This document shows, one piece after another, positions 36,617 to 42,692 of a stretch of DNA of 64,000 nt. Source of the DNA: Bacteroidales bacterium (lineage in GTDB: Bacteria > Bacteroidota > Bacteroidia > Bacteroidales > F082); contig JANJXG010000010.1 of the NCBI GenBank assembly GCA_024709145.1, positions 62,001-126,000 of the forward strand, in the 5' to 3' direction. Each line of letters starts with the position of its first letter. Position 1 is the first letter of the stretch. The notes beneath the pieces were generated by a model. It was given only the letters and a program-made list of their open reading frames with translations. It was not told the DNA's origin and made no database searches. The translations under genes were made by a program, and so were the position numbers.

Positions 36617-36647
36617 TTGTGAACGGTGAGCTAATGTATTATCTTTG
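36617..36647 (+). promoter_or_regulatory. Promoter of the riboswitch-controlled B12 operon
   Basis: TTG at 36617-36619 and TATCTTTG at 36640-36647 are 20 bases apart. Transcription would start near 36654, just where the riboswitch aptamer begins. Confidence 0.65.
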
Positions 36648-36650
36648 CCA

Positions 36651-36830
36651 CGATTTTGGTGTCCAGCCGCTTTTGCGATGGACTTAAAAGGGAACCAGGT
36701 GAAAATCCCGGACAGTACCCGCTGCTGTAAGCTCCTTGAAAAACCACCGGAAACCATTGCCACTGTATCACTTGTATGATATGGGAAGGCCTCCGGAGGG
36801 TGAGTAAGTCAGAAGACCTGCCAAGTCAGT
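36651..36830 (+). ncRNA. Cobalamin riboswitch (adenosylcobalamin family)
   Basis: The conserved core is read in order: AAAAGGGAACCAGGTGAAAA, then TCCCGGACAGTACCCGC, then TGCTGTAA (the B12-box region), GCCACTG, GGGAAGGC and finally GTCAGAAGACCTGCC. Spacing fits a full aptamer with P3-P6. Downstream, 36839-36859 and 36858-36885 can form two hairpins (AAGCTTT/AAAGCTT and TTGTCGA/TCGACAA) that share two bases, so they compete slightly; they may belong to the expression platform. Neither has a T run, so control may act on translation rather than on termination. The first gene starts 105 bases after the aptamer. Confidence 0.93.
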
Positions 36831-36934
36831 TTAGAACAAAGCTTTCGGGATAAAAGCTTGTCGAACTGTCAAAAGATCTCGACAAATTTCCTGGAGTTTT
36901 GAGGTAAAATGTTTTTAACCTTAAAACCGTTTTT

Positions 36935-38224
36935 ATGTCAATTTTTTCAGCCAGAGTTCTCTGTTTTTTAGTCATGATTTCCCTGTTTGCTCCGAAGCTC
37001 CTGGGGCAACAGAACGTAAGCCAACTGATTGTTGCTTCAGGAGGTGCGTTCTCGAATCCAAACGATTTTGTGAGTATAAGTGTCTATCATCCCCAAAATC
37101 AATCTACTGAGGTATTTGGTGAAATACGCACCCAAGCCGTACAGGATGTTATTGTTTACAATGACAAAATATATGTAACCGCCACTGATTCAATTGTCGT
37201 GTTCGACGCACTTAATCATCAACGATTGAATGGCATTGCAATGTCTGGGGTCAGGTATTTACTGGCTGTTGATGAATTGCTGTTTGTCAGTATACAGTAT
37301 CCTCAAACAAGTGATTTTGTTAAAGTTCTTAATATTAACACATTAGAAGTCGTTAAAACAATTTCCCAGATCTCAGGAGAATCTGCCGGTATGTTGCAGT
37401 TCGGAAATAAGGTTTTTGTAGCTGTGCCAGGGGATTGGACTAGCACGGTGGGGAAAGTGGCAGTGTTGGATTCTTTTTCAGGTGAGTTTATCGAAGAAGT
37501 AGATTTTGGCACTTCGGGAAGTGGTATTCATGATTTATTTGCTTTCAACGGCAACATTCTGTCAGTAAACCGATCCGCCTGGGGAGTTAATGAAGGGATA
37601 ATTTCTATGTTTAATCCCTTGACGCGAAGTGTAAGTCATCATCTTTTTCCGTATTCTATTGGTAAAGGAATCGCAGTATCCGAGGAGAAACTTTTTCTGT
37701 TATTGAACAACGGTATCGGCGAAATTAACCTTCAGGATTGGTCTGTTTCCAACGCAGCCGTGGTTCCTGATCCTGGAAGTGCTTCCTTCACTTATTTTGC
37801 TGACATTGTATTTGACCCTTTTGATCAGCGATTTTATGCTACAATCACTGATTATTTTTCAATGGGAGAGGGTAAGATTTTTGATGTCAATGGATTGCAA
37901 ACCGGAAGTTTTTATGCAGGCATATCAGCCGAAGCACTTGCGTTGGATTTTGATTTGACAAGTTCGAACAATGAAAACGAAATTTCTTTGGCTTCAGTTT
38001 GGCCCAATCCGGCTCCAACCCATGTAAGTGTTGAAGTTGAAAATGCCTTTAAACCCGAATCATGGACAGTTTATGCTTTAAACGGCGCCAAAGTACCTGT
38101 TAATCCAATTCAGGCCGGTAATGGCTGGCAGATTGATGTCACTCATTTGAAAGCAGGAATCTATCAGCTTCTTTTACAGAATTCAAATGGTGATCAAATC
38201 CGTTCTACTTTCATAAAAATGTAG
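36935..38224 (+). CDS. T9SS-sorted YncE-like beta-propeller, B12 operon
   Basis: The 429-residue protein has a signal peptide (MSIFSARVLCFLVMISLFA, cleaved near LLGQ). It then has about 300 residues of repeated four-strand blades typical of YncE/quinoprotein-like propellers (for example VVFDALNHQRLNG and VLNINTLEVVKTI). The last 75 residues are a type A T9SS sorting domain (SVWPNPAPTHVSVE, then LKAGIYQLLL). BtuG, the high-affinity surface B12 binder of Bacteroides, is also a beta-propeller, so a role in B12 capture is a reasonable inference. Here the anchor would be T9SS-dependent rather than lipid. It is the first gene of the riboswitch operon. Confidence 0.85.
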   Translation: MSIFSARVLCFLVMISLFAPKLLGQQNVSQLIVASGGAFSNPNDFVSISVYHPQNQSTEVFGEIRTQAVQDVIVYNDKIYVTATDSIVVFDALNHQRLNGIAMSGVRYLLAVDELLFVSIQYPQTSDFVKVLNINTLEVVKTISQISGESAGMLQFGNKVFVAVPGDWTSTVGKVAVLDSFSGEFIEEVDFGTSGSGIHDLFAFNGNILSVNRSAWGVNEGIISMFNPLTRSVSHHLFPYSIGKGIAVSEEKLFLLLNNGIGEINLQDWSVSNAAVVPDPGSASFTYFADIVFDPFDQRFYATITDYFSMGEGKIFDVNGLQTGSFYAGISAEALALDFDLTSSNNENEISLASVWPNPAPTHVSVEVENAFKPESWTVYALNGAKVPVNPIQAGNGWQIDVTHLKAGIYQLLLQNSNGDQIRSTFIKM

Positions 38225-38228
38225 TTAA

Positions 38229-39221
38229 ATGCAGTTATTCAAGCCATTGATTTGGGTTTTATTTCCATGTTTTCTGCTGAGTTGGAGCTTTACTTCAGCT
38301 CAGTTTCCTCCTTCTGCCGGCCAACAGGGAAGTACTGCATTGCATGCCGACAGCAGTATTTTTGTTGCCTGGTCGACCAATGCAGTCATAAGTCGTGGGC
38401 CACAACAAATTGATATGCCAGCACTTGGCGATGCAAGTTATGGCACAACTGCTGCGGCCATTGGCAAAGCTGACATCAATGTGATTAGCCTAGGTGACGG
38501 AGGTACAATAAGTTGTTATTTTGATAAATATTTAATCAACGGTCCCGGTCCTGATTTTGCTGTTTTTGAAAATGGTTTCTCAGAGCAATTTCTTGAACTT
38601 GGTTTTGTTGAAGTTAGCAGTGATGGAATTCAATTCGCGCGTTTTCCTTCAGTTTCGCTTACTACTGAAGCTGTGCAGGTGGGTGGATTTGGAATTCTTG
38701 AGGCTACGCTCATTCATAATCTGGCAGGAAAATACCATGCTTTTTACGGAACTCCTTTTGATTTGAGTGAGATTCAAAGTGAAATTGTAAATGTGGATAG
38801 CATCACGGTTGTCAGGGTGGTAGATGTTGTTGGAAGTCTTCAGGCTGGCTTATGCAGCTTTGATGCTGAAGGCAGAATTATCAACGATCCGTGGCCGACG
38901 CCATTTCCATCTTCGGGCTTTGATTTTGATGCCATTGGCGTGATTCATAATGCTGATTTTTTAGATGTTTCAAAGCAACTCATCAACTCATTTCAACTTT
39001 ATCCAAACCCCTGCAAAGGACTGCTATACATAGTAGTTTCTGCTAACTTTCAGAAATCTAATCAACTTTTGGTGAGCGACTTATCAGGAAAAGTAATTCT
39101 TAAGACAAGTTTAACATCAACAAATGAAGCAATCGATGTTTCACATTTGAATGCAGGAACCTATGTAGTAAGTTTAAACAATGGCAATCAGACTTGGTTC
39201 CAAAAATTAATGCTCCGATGA
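38229..39221 (+). CDS. T9SS-sorted protein of unknown role, B12 operon
   Basis: This protein of 330 residues begins four bases after the previous stop. The signal peptide is MQLFKPLIWVLFPCFLLSWSF, cleaved after SAQ. A domain of about 220 residues carries ISLGDGGTISCYFD, GPGPDFAVFENGF, VEVSSDGIQF and DFDAIGVIHN, the layout of a compact, perhaps metal-binding, jelly-roll fold that I cannot name. The C-terminus is a T9SS sorting domain (LYPNPCKGLLYI, then LNAGTYVVSL). Its place inside the riboswitch operon suggests a role in B12 binding, release from carriers or receptor assembly. The stop overlaps the receptor start (ATGA). Confidence 0.8.
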   Translation: MQLFKPLIWVLFPCFLLSWSFTSAQFPPSAGQQGSTALHADSSIFVAWSTNAVISRGPQQIDMPALGDASYGTTAAAIGKADINVISLGDGGTISCYFDKYLINGPGPDFAVFENGFSEQFLELGFVEVSSDGIQFARFPSVSLTTEAVQVGGFGILEATLIHNLAGKYHAFYGTPFDLSEIQSEIVNVDSITVVRVVDVVGSLQAGLCSFDAEGRIINDPWPTPFPSSGFDFDAIGVIHNADFLDVSKQLINSFQLYPNPCKGLLYIVVSANFQKSNQLLVSDLSGKVILKTSLTSTNEAIDVSHLNAGTYVVSLNNGNQTWFQKLMLR

Positions 39222-41173
39222 AAAATAAGCTCGCAGGTTTTTGGTTTGTTTTAGTGCTGGTGCTCATGAATCACCCTCTGCTTGCAATTATTCCGGATAC
39301 TGTTGATCTTAAGCAGGTTGAGGTGAAGTCCGGTTTGACTCACTTGAAAAGTCCCGGCCGACACTACAAGCTTGATAGTATGACGATGAAGGGATGGCAT
39401 GCCGGCAGTCTATCTGATATACTTCGTTTTAACAGTCCCGTTTATTTGAAATCAGGTGGCCCTGGACTGGTATCAACGGCTTCATTCAGAGGTACAACGG
39501 CGAATCATACATTGGTTTTATGGAACGGGTTTCCGATCAACGGCCCTCAGCTGGGACAGGTTGATTTTGCAACCATACCAGTCTTTTTTATCGACCGTAT
39601 TCAGCTTTCAACAGGAAATGCAGGTTTGGAAAGATCCTCAGGAATCGGCGGTGTTGTTGCCATTGAGAATACACCTGATTTTAATCAAAGCTTTGCAGTG
39701 CAGGCGATGCAATCATTCGGAAGTTTTGGAAGCTTTGGGTCATATGCAGCCTTTACGTTCGGAAAAGGCAGACTAATGCTCAGAAGCAGATTTTTTAAGA
39801 AATCGAGTGAAAACGACTTTAGCTTTATCAATACAGCCGCCCTGCCATCTCGTCGTATGAAACAAGAAAATGCTTCATACATCGATCAGGGTTTTCAACA
39901 GGAATTCCACTACCGATTTAACAGAATGATGCTAAGCATGGTAAGTTGGAATCAGTGGAACAAACACAACCTGCCTCCTATTATGACGAATCTGGAAAGA
40001 GGTGGCAATCCGAAAGAATACCAACACGATTGGTTTAGTCGGAATATAATAAGGCTTAACATTCCCTGGCAAACAGGCAAAGCGGAGTTTAGGTCATCGT
40101 TTTTTACCGAAAAGCAACATTATTACCTGCAAACAACTGCGGCTTTTCCTCCATTTGAGCCTGTTAGCCAGATTGATTCACGCAATGATGTTGAGTCATG
40201 GTTGAGTCAATTGACTGTGCAGCAACAGATTAAAAAGACCAGCTTGTTCTTCAGCATGCATTATGACAGGGAAAAGGCCATTTCGGGTAGTTACCGGGAA
40301 ATTGTCAAAAGAGAGAAGTTTGGAATGAGTGCAGGATTTCAACGGACTATCAATGAGTTTGTTGAGCTAAATTTTCAAGCCAGATTTGATCGATACAACA
40401 AATCACATGCTGGTGTAAATCCATTTATGGAGTTTGTATATCGGTCTAAATCGCTTTCGGGATTGGCAATTAGTTTTTCAGGTGGCAGTATCTCACGTTA
40501 TCCTACACTGAACGATCTTTATTGGTTTCCGGGAGGGAATCCTGAACTTATTCCCGAGCGTGCCATCACTGGAAATGTCAGCCTGAACCATGAAGTTGTT
40601 CTTCGTAATGTAAAGATAGAAAACAAGGTTTCGGTTTATGCTTCCGACATTCACGACTGGATTCAATGGAGGCCAACTTCCTACAGGTATTGGGTTCCTG
40701 AAAACATTGCCCGTGTTTTCGCACGGGGATTGGAGATGCAGAACAAATCAATGATCAAAATCAATCAGGTTGAGGTCCAATTTCGCGGGCAATATGCTTA
40801 TACCCGCACAACAGATGAAAGTCCTGTGGCAAAAATCGATCACTATTCAGGAAAACAGTTGATTTATATTCCGCGCCATCATGGAAACATTTTCATTAAC
40901 CTTGGAAATGGACAATGGTTTGCCGGAACTGGCCTTGAAATAGTGGGCGAACGGAAAACAAGTTTCAGTGATGGGCAGGAATTCTATGATTTTTTACCGC
41001 GCTATCACCTGCTTCATGCCAATGCCGGCATCAGACTTCTTGATTTCCAGTTTGAAATCAAAATTCACAATCTGCTCGACGAGAGTTATCAGGCTGTTAT
41101 GTGGCGTCCAATGCCCGGACGAAGCTTTGAATTTATCGTCAGTTATCATTTCAAAAACGCTAAAGAGAAATAA
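39218..41173 (+). CDS. btuB: BtuB-like TonB-dependent receptor, vitamin B12
   Basis: This is a 651-residue outer-membrane receptor. ATG 39218 overlaps the preceding stop and is followed by a signal peptide ending near LLAII. The TonB-box/plug region is present: KQVEVKSG, then LSDILRFNSPVYLKSGGPG, TASFRGTTANHTLVLWNG and a GGVVAIEN segment. A 22-strand barrel follows with a typical C-terminal aromatic strand (FEFIVSYHF). Substrate assignment to cobalamin comes from the riboswitch and the neighbouring BtuG-like gene, not from the receptor sequence alone. It lacks the N-terminal carboxypeptidase-like extension of SusC-type receptors, which agrees with a BtuB type. Confidence 0.88.
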   Translation: MKNKLAGFWFVLVLVLMNHPLLAIIPDTVDLKQVEVKSGLTHLKSPGRHYKLDSMTMKGWHAGSLSDILRFNSPVYLKSGGPGLVSTASFRGTTANHTLVLWNGFPINGPQLGQVDFATIPVFFIDRIQLSTGNAGLERSSGIGGVVAIENTPDFNQSFAVQAMQSFGSFGSFGSYAAFTFGKGRLMLRSRFFKKSSENDFSFINTAALPSRRMKQENASYIDQGFQQEFHYRFNRMMLSMVSWNQWNKHNLPPIMTNLERGGNPKEYQHDWFSRNIIRLNIPWQTGKAEFRSSFFTEKQHYYLQTTAAFPPFEPVSQIDSRNDVESWLSQLTVQQQIKKTSLFFSMHYDREKAISGSYREIVKREKFGMSAGFQRTINEFVELNFQARFDRYNKSHAGVNPFMEFVYRSKSLSGLAISFSGGSISRYPTLNDLYWFPGGNPELIPERAITGNVSLNHEVVLRNVKIENKVSVYASDIHDWIQWRPTSYRYWVPENIARVFARGLEMQNKSMIKINQVEVQFRGQYAYTRTTDESPVAKIDHYSGKQLIYIPRHHGNIFINLGNGQWFAGTGLEIVGERKTSFSDGQEFYDFLPRYHLLHANAGIRLLDFQFEIKIHNLLDESYQAVMWRPMPGRSFEFIVSYHFKNAKEK

Positions 41174-41182
41174 TTTTTACAC

Positions 41183-42259
41183 ATGAAAAAAGTCAACCTT
41201 CTCAAACATCTTTTCATTCAGTCGGTTTTTTTTCTGCTGCTCATTGCCTCAGCTTGCACAAAAGGTAAAGAGCCCGATTACCCGCTTCCTGAAAACTTAA
41301 ACCTTGGGAAAGGGTTTTATGTGTTGAATCAGGGTAACTTTACCTCCGGAAATGCCTCTATGTCATTTTACAGGAAGGATTCCGCTAAAATGATCAACCA
41401 GATTTTCTACCAAAGAAATGGTGTGCCATTGGGAGATGTGGCCCAAAGCATGACTTTTTGGAAGAATTATGCTTTTGTAGTCGTTAACAATAGTGGCGTT
41501 GTTTGGGCTATTAATTCCTCGACAGCAAAAGTTGTTGGAAAATTAAGTGGGTTACATTCACCACGTTATGTATGTGTTGTAGACGCAGAAAAATCTTATG
41601 TGAGTGATTTCCAGATTCCCGGGATTACTGTTTTTCAAACTTCAACAATGTTGCCACTCGGAACAATTCAAACCGGCAAAACAACCGAGCAATTGTTGCT
41701 GGTTGGTGACAAGGTTTTTGCAGCCAACTGGTCATCGTACCAGCAATCCCGGCCAAACAATACCATACAGGTAATAGATGTGTCACTCGACCAGCTGACC
41801 GACAGCATCGTCGTTGCAAAAGAGCCTAACAGCATGGTGGTTGATAAAAACGGAAAATTGTGGGTTTTATGCAGTGGAGGTTATCTGAACGAAGAAATAC
41901 CTGCCTTATTCCGGATAAATACTCAAACTTTTGATATTGAAAAGCGGTTTGACTTTCCGGATATTAACACCTCACCTTCACAACTGACCATTAATGCAGG
42001 AGGTGACACACTTTACTACCTGAACCAATCGATTTATAGCTTGCCCATTGAGGCAGATGAACTTGCTGAAGCTGCTTTTGCCCTGGCAGGAAACAGAAAT
42101 TTTTATTCACTAGCCGTCGATCCGCAGGATAATGCAGTTTTTGCAACTGATGCCGGTAATTACCTTCAGAAAGGCTATGTATACCGATATAAACCCAATG
42201 GCACAATAATTGATTCGCTCGCAGCAGGGATCATTCCCGGTTTTATTGGATTTAACTGA
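41183..42259 (+). CDS. BtuG-like beta-propeller lipoprotein
   Basis: The 358-residue protein has a lipoprotein signal (FFLLLIASAC, lipobox cysteine at residue 26) followed by a seven-blade YncE/DUF5074-type propeller (GKGFYVLNQGNFTSGNAS, VYRYKPNGTIIDSL). In Bacteroides such lipoproteins (BtuG) bind cobalamin very tightly and cap BtuB (established knowledge). The order receptor then propeller, nine bases apart, fits that complex. It is the last clear member of the riboswitch operon, although the OsmC gene follows only 19 bases later. Confidence 0.85.
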   Translation: MKKVNLLKHLFIQSVFFLLLIASACTKGKEPDYPLPENLNLGKGFYVLNQGNFTSGNASMSFYRKDSAKMINQIFYQRNGVPLGDVAQSMTFWKNYAFVVVNNSGVVWAINSSTAKVVGKLSGLHSPRYVCVVDAEKSYVSDFQIPGITVFQTSTMLPLGTIQTGKTTEQLLLVGDKVFAANWSSYQQSRPNNTIQVIDVSLDQLTDSIVVAKEPNSMVVDKNGKLWVLCSGGYLNEEIPALFRINTQTFDIEKRFDFPDINTSPSQLTINAGGDTLYYLNQSIYSLPIEADELAEAAFALAGNRNFYSLAVDPQDNAVFATDAGNYLQKGYVYRYKPNGTIIDSLAAGIIPGFIGFN

Positions 42260-42278: not shown

Positions 42279-42692
42279 ATGAACAACAAAGTTGAAGTAA
42301 CCTGGACAGGTGATATGTCATTTGAAGCTGATGTGAATGGCTTCAAGTTAGCTATTGATGCAGACGAATCAGTGGGTGGCCAAAATCGCGGGCCACGCCC
42401 GAAACCATTGACCTTAGCCTCACTTGGGGGTTGCACGGGAATGGACGTCATTTCTATTCTCAGAAAAATGCGGGTTGAACCAAGCTGGTTTAATGTAGAA
42501 GTAGATGGTGAGTTGACTGAAGAACATCCTAAATACTACCACAAAATTCATGTCAGGTATTTTTTTAAGGGAGAAAATCTGGACAGGGAGAAATTGGAAA
42601 AAGCTGTCAGTTTGTCACAGGAAAGGTATTGCGGTGTGAATGAATTACTTCGCAAAGGGGCTGAAATAACCAGTGAAGTTGTTATCCTCTGA
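42279..42692 (+). CDS. OsmC/Ohr-family protein
   Basis: This 137-residue protein of the OsmC fold usually acts as a thiol-dependent peroxidase. The two expected cysteines are present, in SLGGCTGMDV and ERYCGVNELL. I take the ATG at 42279; a longer open frame overlaps the end of the BtuG-like gene. It belongs to the YhfA-like subgroup by length and by GGQNRGPRPKPLTLASLGGC-type wording. Close spacing suggests co-transcription with the B12 genes, but a functional link is not evident. Confidence 0.87.
   Translation: MNNKVEVTWTGDMSFEADVNGFKLAIDADESVGGQNRGPRPKPLTLASLGGCTGMDVISILRKMRVEPSWFNVEVDGELTEEHPKYYHKIHVRYFFKGENLDREKLEKAVSLSQERYCGVNELLRKGAEITSEVVIL

Follow-up and report, generated by a model that had tools for sequence, protein, structure and literature searches.

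Introduction

The closest described relatives of the locus reported here are the vitamin B12 (cobalamin) uptake loci of Bacteroides thetaiotaomicron, in which BtuBG is accompanied by BtuH, BtuJ and BtuK (PMC6143338, PMC8941943, PMC10404256, PMC12751083). An operon that we analysed in a 64,000-nucleotide stretch of DNA from a Bacteroidales bacterium (contig JANJXG010000010.1, positions 62,001–126,000; hereafter the window, within which coordinates are counted) has the same riboswitch, the same TonB-dependent receptor BtuB and the same lipoprotein BtuG, and, like the B. thetaiotaomicron loci, encodes extra proteins with a BtuG-type propeller and a BtuH domain. However, the accessory binders of B. 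thetaiotaomicron are lipoproteins, whereas the two candidate binders of the window, ORF1 and ORF2, have no lipobox and are cargo of the type IX secretion system (T9SS). From its sequence we read the locus as a T9SS variant of the Bacteroides lipoprotein BtuBG/BtuH system.

BtuH-type proteins may load BtuBG, as suggested by Abellon-Ruiz and colleagues (PMC10404256). The DUF4465 (BtuJ) family comprises exported jelly-roll B12 binders whose genes often neighbour those of TonB receptors and DUF5074 propellers; eight distantly related members have been shown to bind B12, more than 70% of the family are predicted lipoproteins and the remainder are described with periplasmic signals (PMC13398666). 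In the present study DUF4465 adjoins, or is fused to, the ORF2 family, but ORF2 itself is not a DUF4465 protein. In F. psychrophilum a flavobacterial cobalamin riboswitch precedes a TonB receptor, as here, and the passage on that locus names no T9SS cargo (PMC9723704). Neither T9SS nor type IX appears in the available passages of PMC6143338, PMC8941943 and PMC12751083, and the term T9SS has no occurrence in the text of PMC13398666. Among the literature matches listed, no title or abstract opening named T9SS-exported B12 binders (subscription papers and preprints lay outside the coverage, so that this is no proof of novelty), and the word 'cobalophore' was absent from the haemophore/cobalophore literature among those matches. 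Haemophores such as HasA and HmuY are proteins that capture a scarce tetrapyrrole outside the cell for a TonB receptor. They offer an analogy only: compared with the window system they have other folds and another ligand, and release in the window system would be hypothetical.

Results

A cobalamin riboswitch precedes BtuB- and BtuG-type genes

The source genome (3.8 Mb, 99% complete) has one cobalamin riboswitch, located before ORF1. The aptamer (36640–36839, + strand) is full length and belongs to RF00174, scoring 104.4 bits where the gathering score is 31.5 (E = 4.5e-25). Downstream on this strand lie four genes, ORF1 (36935–38224), ORF2 (38229–39221), ORF3 (39218–41173) and ORF4 (41183–42259), spaced by 4, -4 and 9 bases; the start of ORF3 was taken at the ATG at 39218, the start given by the open reading frame lister being the TTG at 39194. 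A first-pass annotation of this DNA had described a riboswitch, four linked genes with these spacings, T9SS tails, a TonB receptor and a propeller lipoprotein, all of which were borne out; the signal peptides that it had placed on both T9SS proteins are also visible to us by eye.

ORF3 bears a TonB plug (PF07715, E = 5.8e-13). Among solved structures it is closest to the Bacteroides B12 transporters of 8p97 (BtuB3, E = 1.5e-64) and 8bmx (E = 1.2e-62), and it matches E. coli BtuB at E ~5e-10. Against the TonB-B12 model TIGR01779 it scored 90.9 bits (E = 7e-26), far under the cut-off of 599.7. We name ORF3 'BtuB-type' because it falls under this cut-off, yet is homologous to the Bacteroides transporters. 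ORF4 combines a DUF5074 propeller (E = 6e-22) with closeness to the solved BtuG structures (E from ~1e-64 to 1e-68) and a lipobox (LLLIASAC, by eye), the features of a BtuG surface lipoprotein. The BtuG2 pocket is lined by the aromatics Trp194, Tyr239, Trp272, Tyr316 and Tyr335 (PMC10404256); ORF4 keeps four of the five, and the lost one, Trp272, is also lost in the BtuG3 of 8p97.

ORF2 carries a BtuH-like domain

ORF2 comprises a signal peptide (by eye), a domain spanning residues ~26–245 and a T9SS type A sorting domain (257–328) that matched PF18962 (E = 4.1e-14) and TIGR04183 (E = 5.9e-14), both above the curated cut-offs. Outside this tail no Pfam match exceeded its cut-off. A family profile was needed because ORF2 alone gave nothing informative but the tail. 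It was made from 35 aligned ORF2 domains, from 35 genomes of a 296-genome sample of the phylum (the source genome included), and was searched against all PDB sequences to E 10. Two matches were obtained, both to BtuH domains: 8blw (BtuG1 of B. thetaiotaomicron, in its BtuH domain, chain residues 395–497; E = 9.6e-6) and 7biz (BtuH2; E = 0.0074). Sequence homology to BtuH is thus detected by the profile, though not by the single sequence.

The fold of ORF2 was predicted with AlphaFold2 from 78 input sequences, the three DUF4465 fusions described below being left out of the alignment (A3) and rows L032–L065 out of the prediction (mean pLDDT 95). When Foldseek's candidates were re-aligned with a structural aligner (hereafter the second look), 7biz ranked first (Z 13.2 over 158 residues) and 8blw second (Z 11.4 over 160), and a CBM32 domain came next at Z 9.5; by these ranks the model has the fold of the BtuH C-terminal domain. 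Plain Foldseek placed 8blw first (E = 7.5e-4), the F5/8 domain 3nng second and 7biz third (E = 1.9e-3). The B12 contacts of BtuH2 in print are Asn399, Phe401, Tyr510, Trp511, Trp577, His476 and Gln333 (PMC8941943). The N and F of an ENxF motif in ORF2 align with Asn399 and Phe401 (numbering by hand from the profile alignment), and both residues are invariant in all 35 ORF2 domains from the protein search.

No lipobox was seen in ORF2 by eye, and among 114 relatives a loose lipobox pattern matched seven, none of them convincing by eye. DUF4465 was considered as the identity of ORF2 and rejected: PF14717 gave no match at E ≤ 1 and was absent from the five families matched by the 35 domains. ORF2 is thus identified by family profile and predicted fold as BtuH-like; it may work like BtuH, yet is no BtuH lipoprotein.

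ORF1 is a BtuG-like propeller

ORF1 has a signal peptide (by eye) and ends in a T9SS type A sorting domain that is above the curated cut-offs of both PF18962 (E = 5.3e-8) and TIGR04183 (E = 2.6e-7). It also matches DUF5074 (PF16819, E = 2.1e-8), a propeller identity that had been overlooked in the first-pass annotation; the source genome has two DUF5074 matches, ORF1 and ORF4. With hhalign, profiles built from 18 ORF1-type and from 22 BtuG proteins aligned over 323 columns (E = 1.2e-15). In the second look at the predicted fold, the top 11 entries were all BtuG (Z 29.4–31.9) and the next propeller scored 28.5, a small margin, as propellers generally score high. In plain Foldseek the leading matches were designed and kelch propellers, and BtuK1 (9s6c) stood at ranks 8 and 10. 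The ORF1 sequence profile searched against the PDB returned T9SS tails and one weak DUF3244 match, and no BtuG; the link between ORF1 and BtuG rests therefore on the profile-profile comparison and on the fold.

By eye ORF1 has no lipobox, and carries the T9SS tail instead. As it lacks the lipoprotein anchor, we call it BtuG-like, not BtuG. An aromatic residue is kept at about two of the five BtuG2 pocket positions (profile alignment, counted by hand), which makes B12 binding by ORF1 less sure: the protein may bind B12 differently or not at all.

T9SS machinery and probable B12 demand of the source genome

The presence of T9SS in the source genome was judged from SprA, PorU and sorting tails. 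SprA scored 2564 bits, two PorU-type sortases scored 1326 and 1224 bits, and at E 0.001 there were 119 sorting-tail matches, the majority above the cut-off. With their C-terminal type A sorting domains, ORF1 and ORF2 thus qualify as T9SS cargo on the evidence of SprA and PorU. The two sortase genes stand in tandem (C91:8783–15551), both far above the model cut-off. Among relatives, a T9SS tail (Pfam, E 0.001) was found on 90 of the 113 full-length ORF2-family proteins, this set being 115 proteins less those of L068 and L094, which are cut by contig ends.

Another tail was seen on one of the 113, in a genome labelled Chthonomonas sp. UBA1950 (L124:9141–10735), where a probable DUF4465 gene adjoins an ORF2-type gene whose product ends in a PEP-CTERM tail. 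Such a tail was also found on one of the 36 upstream slot proteins described below, probably the one of L124. To judge from these tails, the pair probably represents another surface route for the same two proteins.

The source genome encodes MetH, methylmalonyl-CoA mutase and IcmF. CobS was not found in it, the other biosynthesis genes not having been searched for. With MetH, two mutases and no CobS, the organism therefore most likely requires B12 or its precursors from outside. No BtuFCD gene was present among the genes examined beside the operon, no genome-wide search having been made. Elsewhere in the genome, C116:6804–7049 (L156) encodes a protein with a B12-binding domain that resembles the repressor CarH and scores under the model cut-off.

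ORF2 relatives often lie behind cobalamin riboswitches, beside BtuB and propeller genes

Two sets of loci were compared. The first consists of the best 80 of 542 confirmed loci, found with an ORF2-sequence pattern and with closer relatives favoured; the second comprises the 34 loci of the phylum sample. Among the 80 are homologous loci of two cultivated T9SS species, Flavobacterium sp. 7A (L141) and Mariniflexile gromovii (L132). Within the first set, a same-strand cobalamin riboswitch lies at most 5 kb upstream of ORF2 in 66 of 80 loci (60 from the first feature check and six from an Rfam re-test of the 20 loci left without one), and in 50 of the 54 loci whose upstream sequence extends for 4.5 kb or more. 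A random gene would be so placed in well under 1% of genomes (an estimate from 5 kb in 3–4 Mb, on one strand). In the phylum sample the fetched stretch contains a riboswitch in 19 of 34 cases, all 19 upstream and on the same strand. The mere presence of a riboswitch in the genome (34 of 34 with ORF2) was dropped as evidence; it is riboswitch position that counts, because 288 of the 296 phylum genomes carry one anyway.

BtuB lies beside ORF2 in 32, a propeller in 36 and either of them in 39 of the 47 loci that are flanked by 4 kb on each side; either is present in 29 of the 34 phylum loci (labels from our own profiles). The full order of the window (T9SS propeller, ORF2, BtuB, lipoprotein propeller) is found in 11 loci, the window included, and seven further loci agree with it, one end of each being cut off or unclear; here the T9SS and lipoprotein labels come from our own profile and a pattern, the tail profile having been trained on the ORF2 family. 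The first-pass annotation had proposed B12 capture under riboswitch control with T9SS proteins within the machinery, a proposal that the homologies and the riboswitch loci of relatives support; its further expectation, that homologues should sit at riboswitch loci rather than mostly outside them, holds for ORF2 in the 66 of 80 loci and weakly in the phylum sample.

In 17 of the best 80 loci an ORF1-type propeller is encoded immediately upstream of ORF2. For 36 other proteins encoded in this slot (chosen by eye from 43 unmatched ones, the next gene up being used for L112), we found 25 DUF4465 and five DUF4430 proteins, and 33 have a T9SS tail. In three relatives DUF4465 is in the same chain as an ORF2-type domain (L095:421–2133, L106:4315–6096 and L145:5946–7610). 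These fusions show either domain order and carry a sorting tail; judged by their sequences, they are probable cases of two B12-binding domains in one protein. DUF4430 is a C-terminal domain of animal transcobalamins (PMC4350170). In two Bacteroidales loci, T9SS-tailed DUF4430 proteins are encoded directly behind cobalamin riboswitches (L067:8752–9936 and L075:8319–9944), and DUF4430 proteins similar in look to those of the slot come from rumen or gut genomes. Several genomes also have, within the B12 locus or next to it, a gene marked by an SGGKDS-like motif (L112:9179–9898, L130:9199–9921, L073:1079–1771 and, downstream of btuG, L137), which we take to be of the ATP-pyrophosphatase type.

Promoter, leader and downstream genes

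A candidate promoter (TTG, 20 bases, TATCTTTG) lies at 36617–36647 on the + strand and follows what we take to be the Bacteroidota consensus. The window has four matches to the pattern on its + strand and one on its - strand; as shuffles give 1.94 per strand, the match is weak when taken alone. Between aptamer and ORF1, RNA folding (z = -2.25 for the leader) predicts hairpins at 36858–36934 (+ strand), a possible terminator or expression platform: the last stem (36896–36927) is followed by TTTTT immediately before the ATG. A hairpin and TTTTT so placed would suit transcription attenuation. The consensus terminator scan did not pick this stem, and its overall yield was at chance (five found, 5.7 expected). 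A scan for B12-box motifs was too loose and was left unused.

Downstream, an OsmC-family gene (42279–42692, + strand; PF02566, E = 1.2e-17) begins 19 bases past ORF4 on the same strand. It had been overlooked in the earlier annotation and is possibly co-transcribed with the operon. It is followed in the window by Nudix, ClpS and NfeD genes. OsmC is near the locus in 12 relatives too, eight of which keep Nudix and seven ClpS and NfeD, a wider gene order shared with the window.

Discussion

Taken together, these results make it likely that the locus is a B12-repressed operon for outer-membrane cobamide capture and import, with T9SS-exported ORF1 and ORF2 as the counterpart of the BtuG, BtuH and BtuJ lipoproteins. 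From what is known of such riboswitches, scarcity of B12 would permit transcription of the operon. As the tails and the machinery suggest, ORF1 and ORF2 would then cross the outer membrane by T9SS rather than through lipidation and be displayed at the cell surface, or be partly released. Surface display is our default guess because the source genome has PorU-type sortases, and PorU anchors cargo to the surface in Porphyromonas gingivalis (PMC8545088). Both proteins would bind cobamides tightly and hand them to BtuBG; for ORF2, homology and two kept contacts suggest that it is the BtuH-like domain that takes the cobamide. Finally, ORF3 as BtuB, with the lipoprotein ORF4 (BtuG) as its lid, would form the import complex that brings the cobamide in, both being close homologues of known partners.

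Several observations weigh against this proposal. The case rests on sequence and predicted fold. With the single ORF2 sequence searched against Pfam, NCBIfam and the PDB, the tail alone was informative and no BtuH was retrieved from the PDB; plain Foldseek scores were low, both BtuH chains having a TM-score of ~0.5 and an rmsd above 10. Of the BtuH2 contacts named in print, only Asn399 and Phe401 could be matched in ORF2, and a count of ENxF across all 113 relatives was dropped, the 80 loci having been found with a pattern that contains this motif. ORF1, for its part, lacks about three of the pocket aromatics. Among relatives, a tail is missing at E 0.001 from 23 of 113 ORF2-family proteins. 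ORF2 matches at E 0.001 occur in only 35 of the 296 phylum genomes, the source genome included. An upstream riboswitch was not found in 14 of the 80 loci (ten of these having less than 4.5 kb upstream), in the other 15 of the 34 phylum genomes it lies elsewhere in the genome, and neither BtuB nor a propeller is present in 8 of 47 and 5 of 34 loci.

The alternatives concern what the two exported proteins do. The loss of most BtuG pocket aromatics raises the serious possibility, which we hold to be short of probable, that ORF1 has lost the ability to bind B12 and plays a structural part, such as that of a second lid or of a platform on which ORF2 docks; BtuL, from a B. thetaiotaomicron operon of the same kind, did not bind B12 (PMC12751083). 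However, the presence of DUF4465 (25) and DUF4430 (five) proteins among the 36 sister slots scanned suggests exchangeable B12 binders at this position, and BtuK1, a propeller distinct from BtuG to judge by how its structure (9s6c) matches the fold of ORF1, does bind B12 (PMC12751083). For ORF2, a role as an F5/8- or CBM32-like module that binds glycans or polymers and so tethers the system, its likeness to BtuH reflecting only a shared fold, would agree with the second look from rank 3 down (mainly CBM32, discoidin and similar domains, Z 7.5–9.5), with the F5/8 domain at rank 2 of plain Foldseek and with the modest similarity of BtuH itself to an alginate lyase (PMC8941943). We consider this very improbable, as the ORF2 profile finds BtuH chains alone in the PDB, BtuH leads the second look, two ligand residues match, and the family sits at riboswitch and BtuB loci and includes DUF4465 fusions.

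It is also conceivable, though somewhat unlikely, that ORF1, ORF2 or both are released as a 'cobalophore', an idea raised in the first-pass annotation, that binds B12 at a distance from the cell and delivers it to BtuBG in the manner of haemophores. T9SS cargo may be either anchored or delivered into the medium (PMC10202324), BtuH2 grips B12 almost irreversibly (koff ~8.6e-5 per second; PMC10404256), and vesicles bearing BtuJ have been proposed to act like siderophores (PMC12751083). Yet type A tails and PorU-type sortases fit surface anchoring, and a released carrier would give a single cell little unless cells are dense. A broader proposal, which we regard as distinctly unlikely, is that T9SS-bearing Bacteroidota have a modular 'cobalophore' system of at least four exchangeable, riboswitch-controlled binder families (BtuH-like, BtuG-like, DUF4465 and DUF4430), part of them released and returning cobamides to BtuBG. 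For release as such, the B12-binding lipoproteins carried on vesicles in B. thetaiotaomicron are a published parallel (PMC12751083). If the broader proposal were true, released binders would possibly be a public good, shared or stolen.

For the ORF2 family, which had no name, its locus and its relatives provide a probable function. The existence of a secreted bacterial B12 carrier becomes testable with named genes. Our data further suggest that some of the DUF4465 proteins described with periplasmic signals are T9SS surface proteins, and that within one phylum B12 binders may leave the cell by two routes, as lipoproteins and as T9SS cargo.

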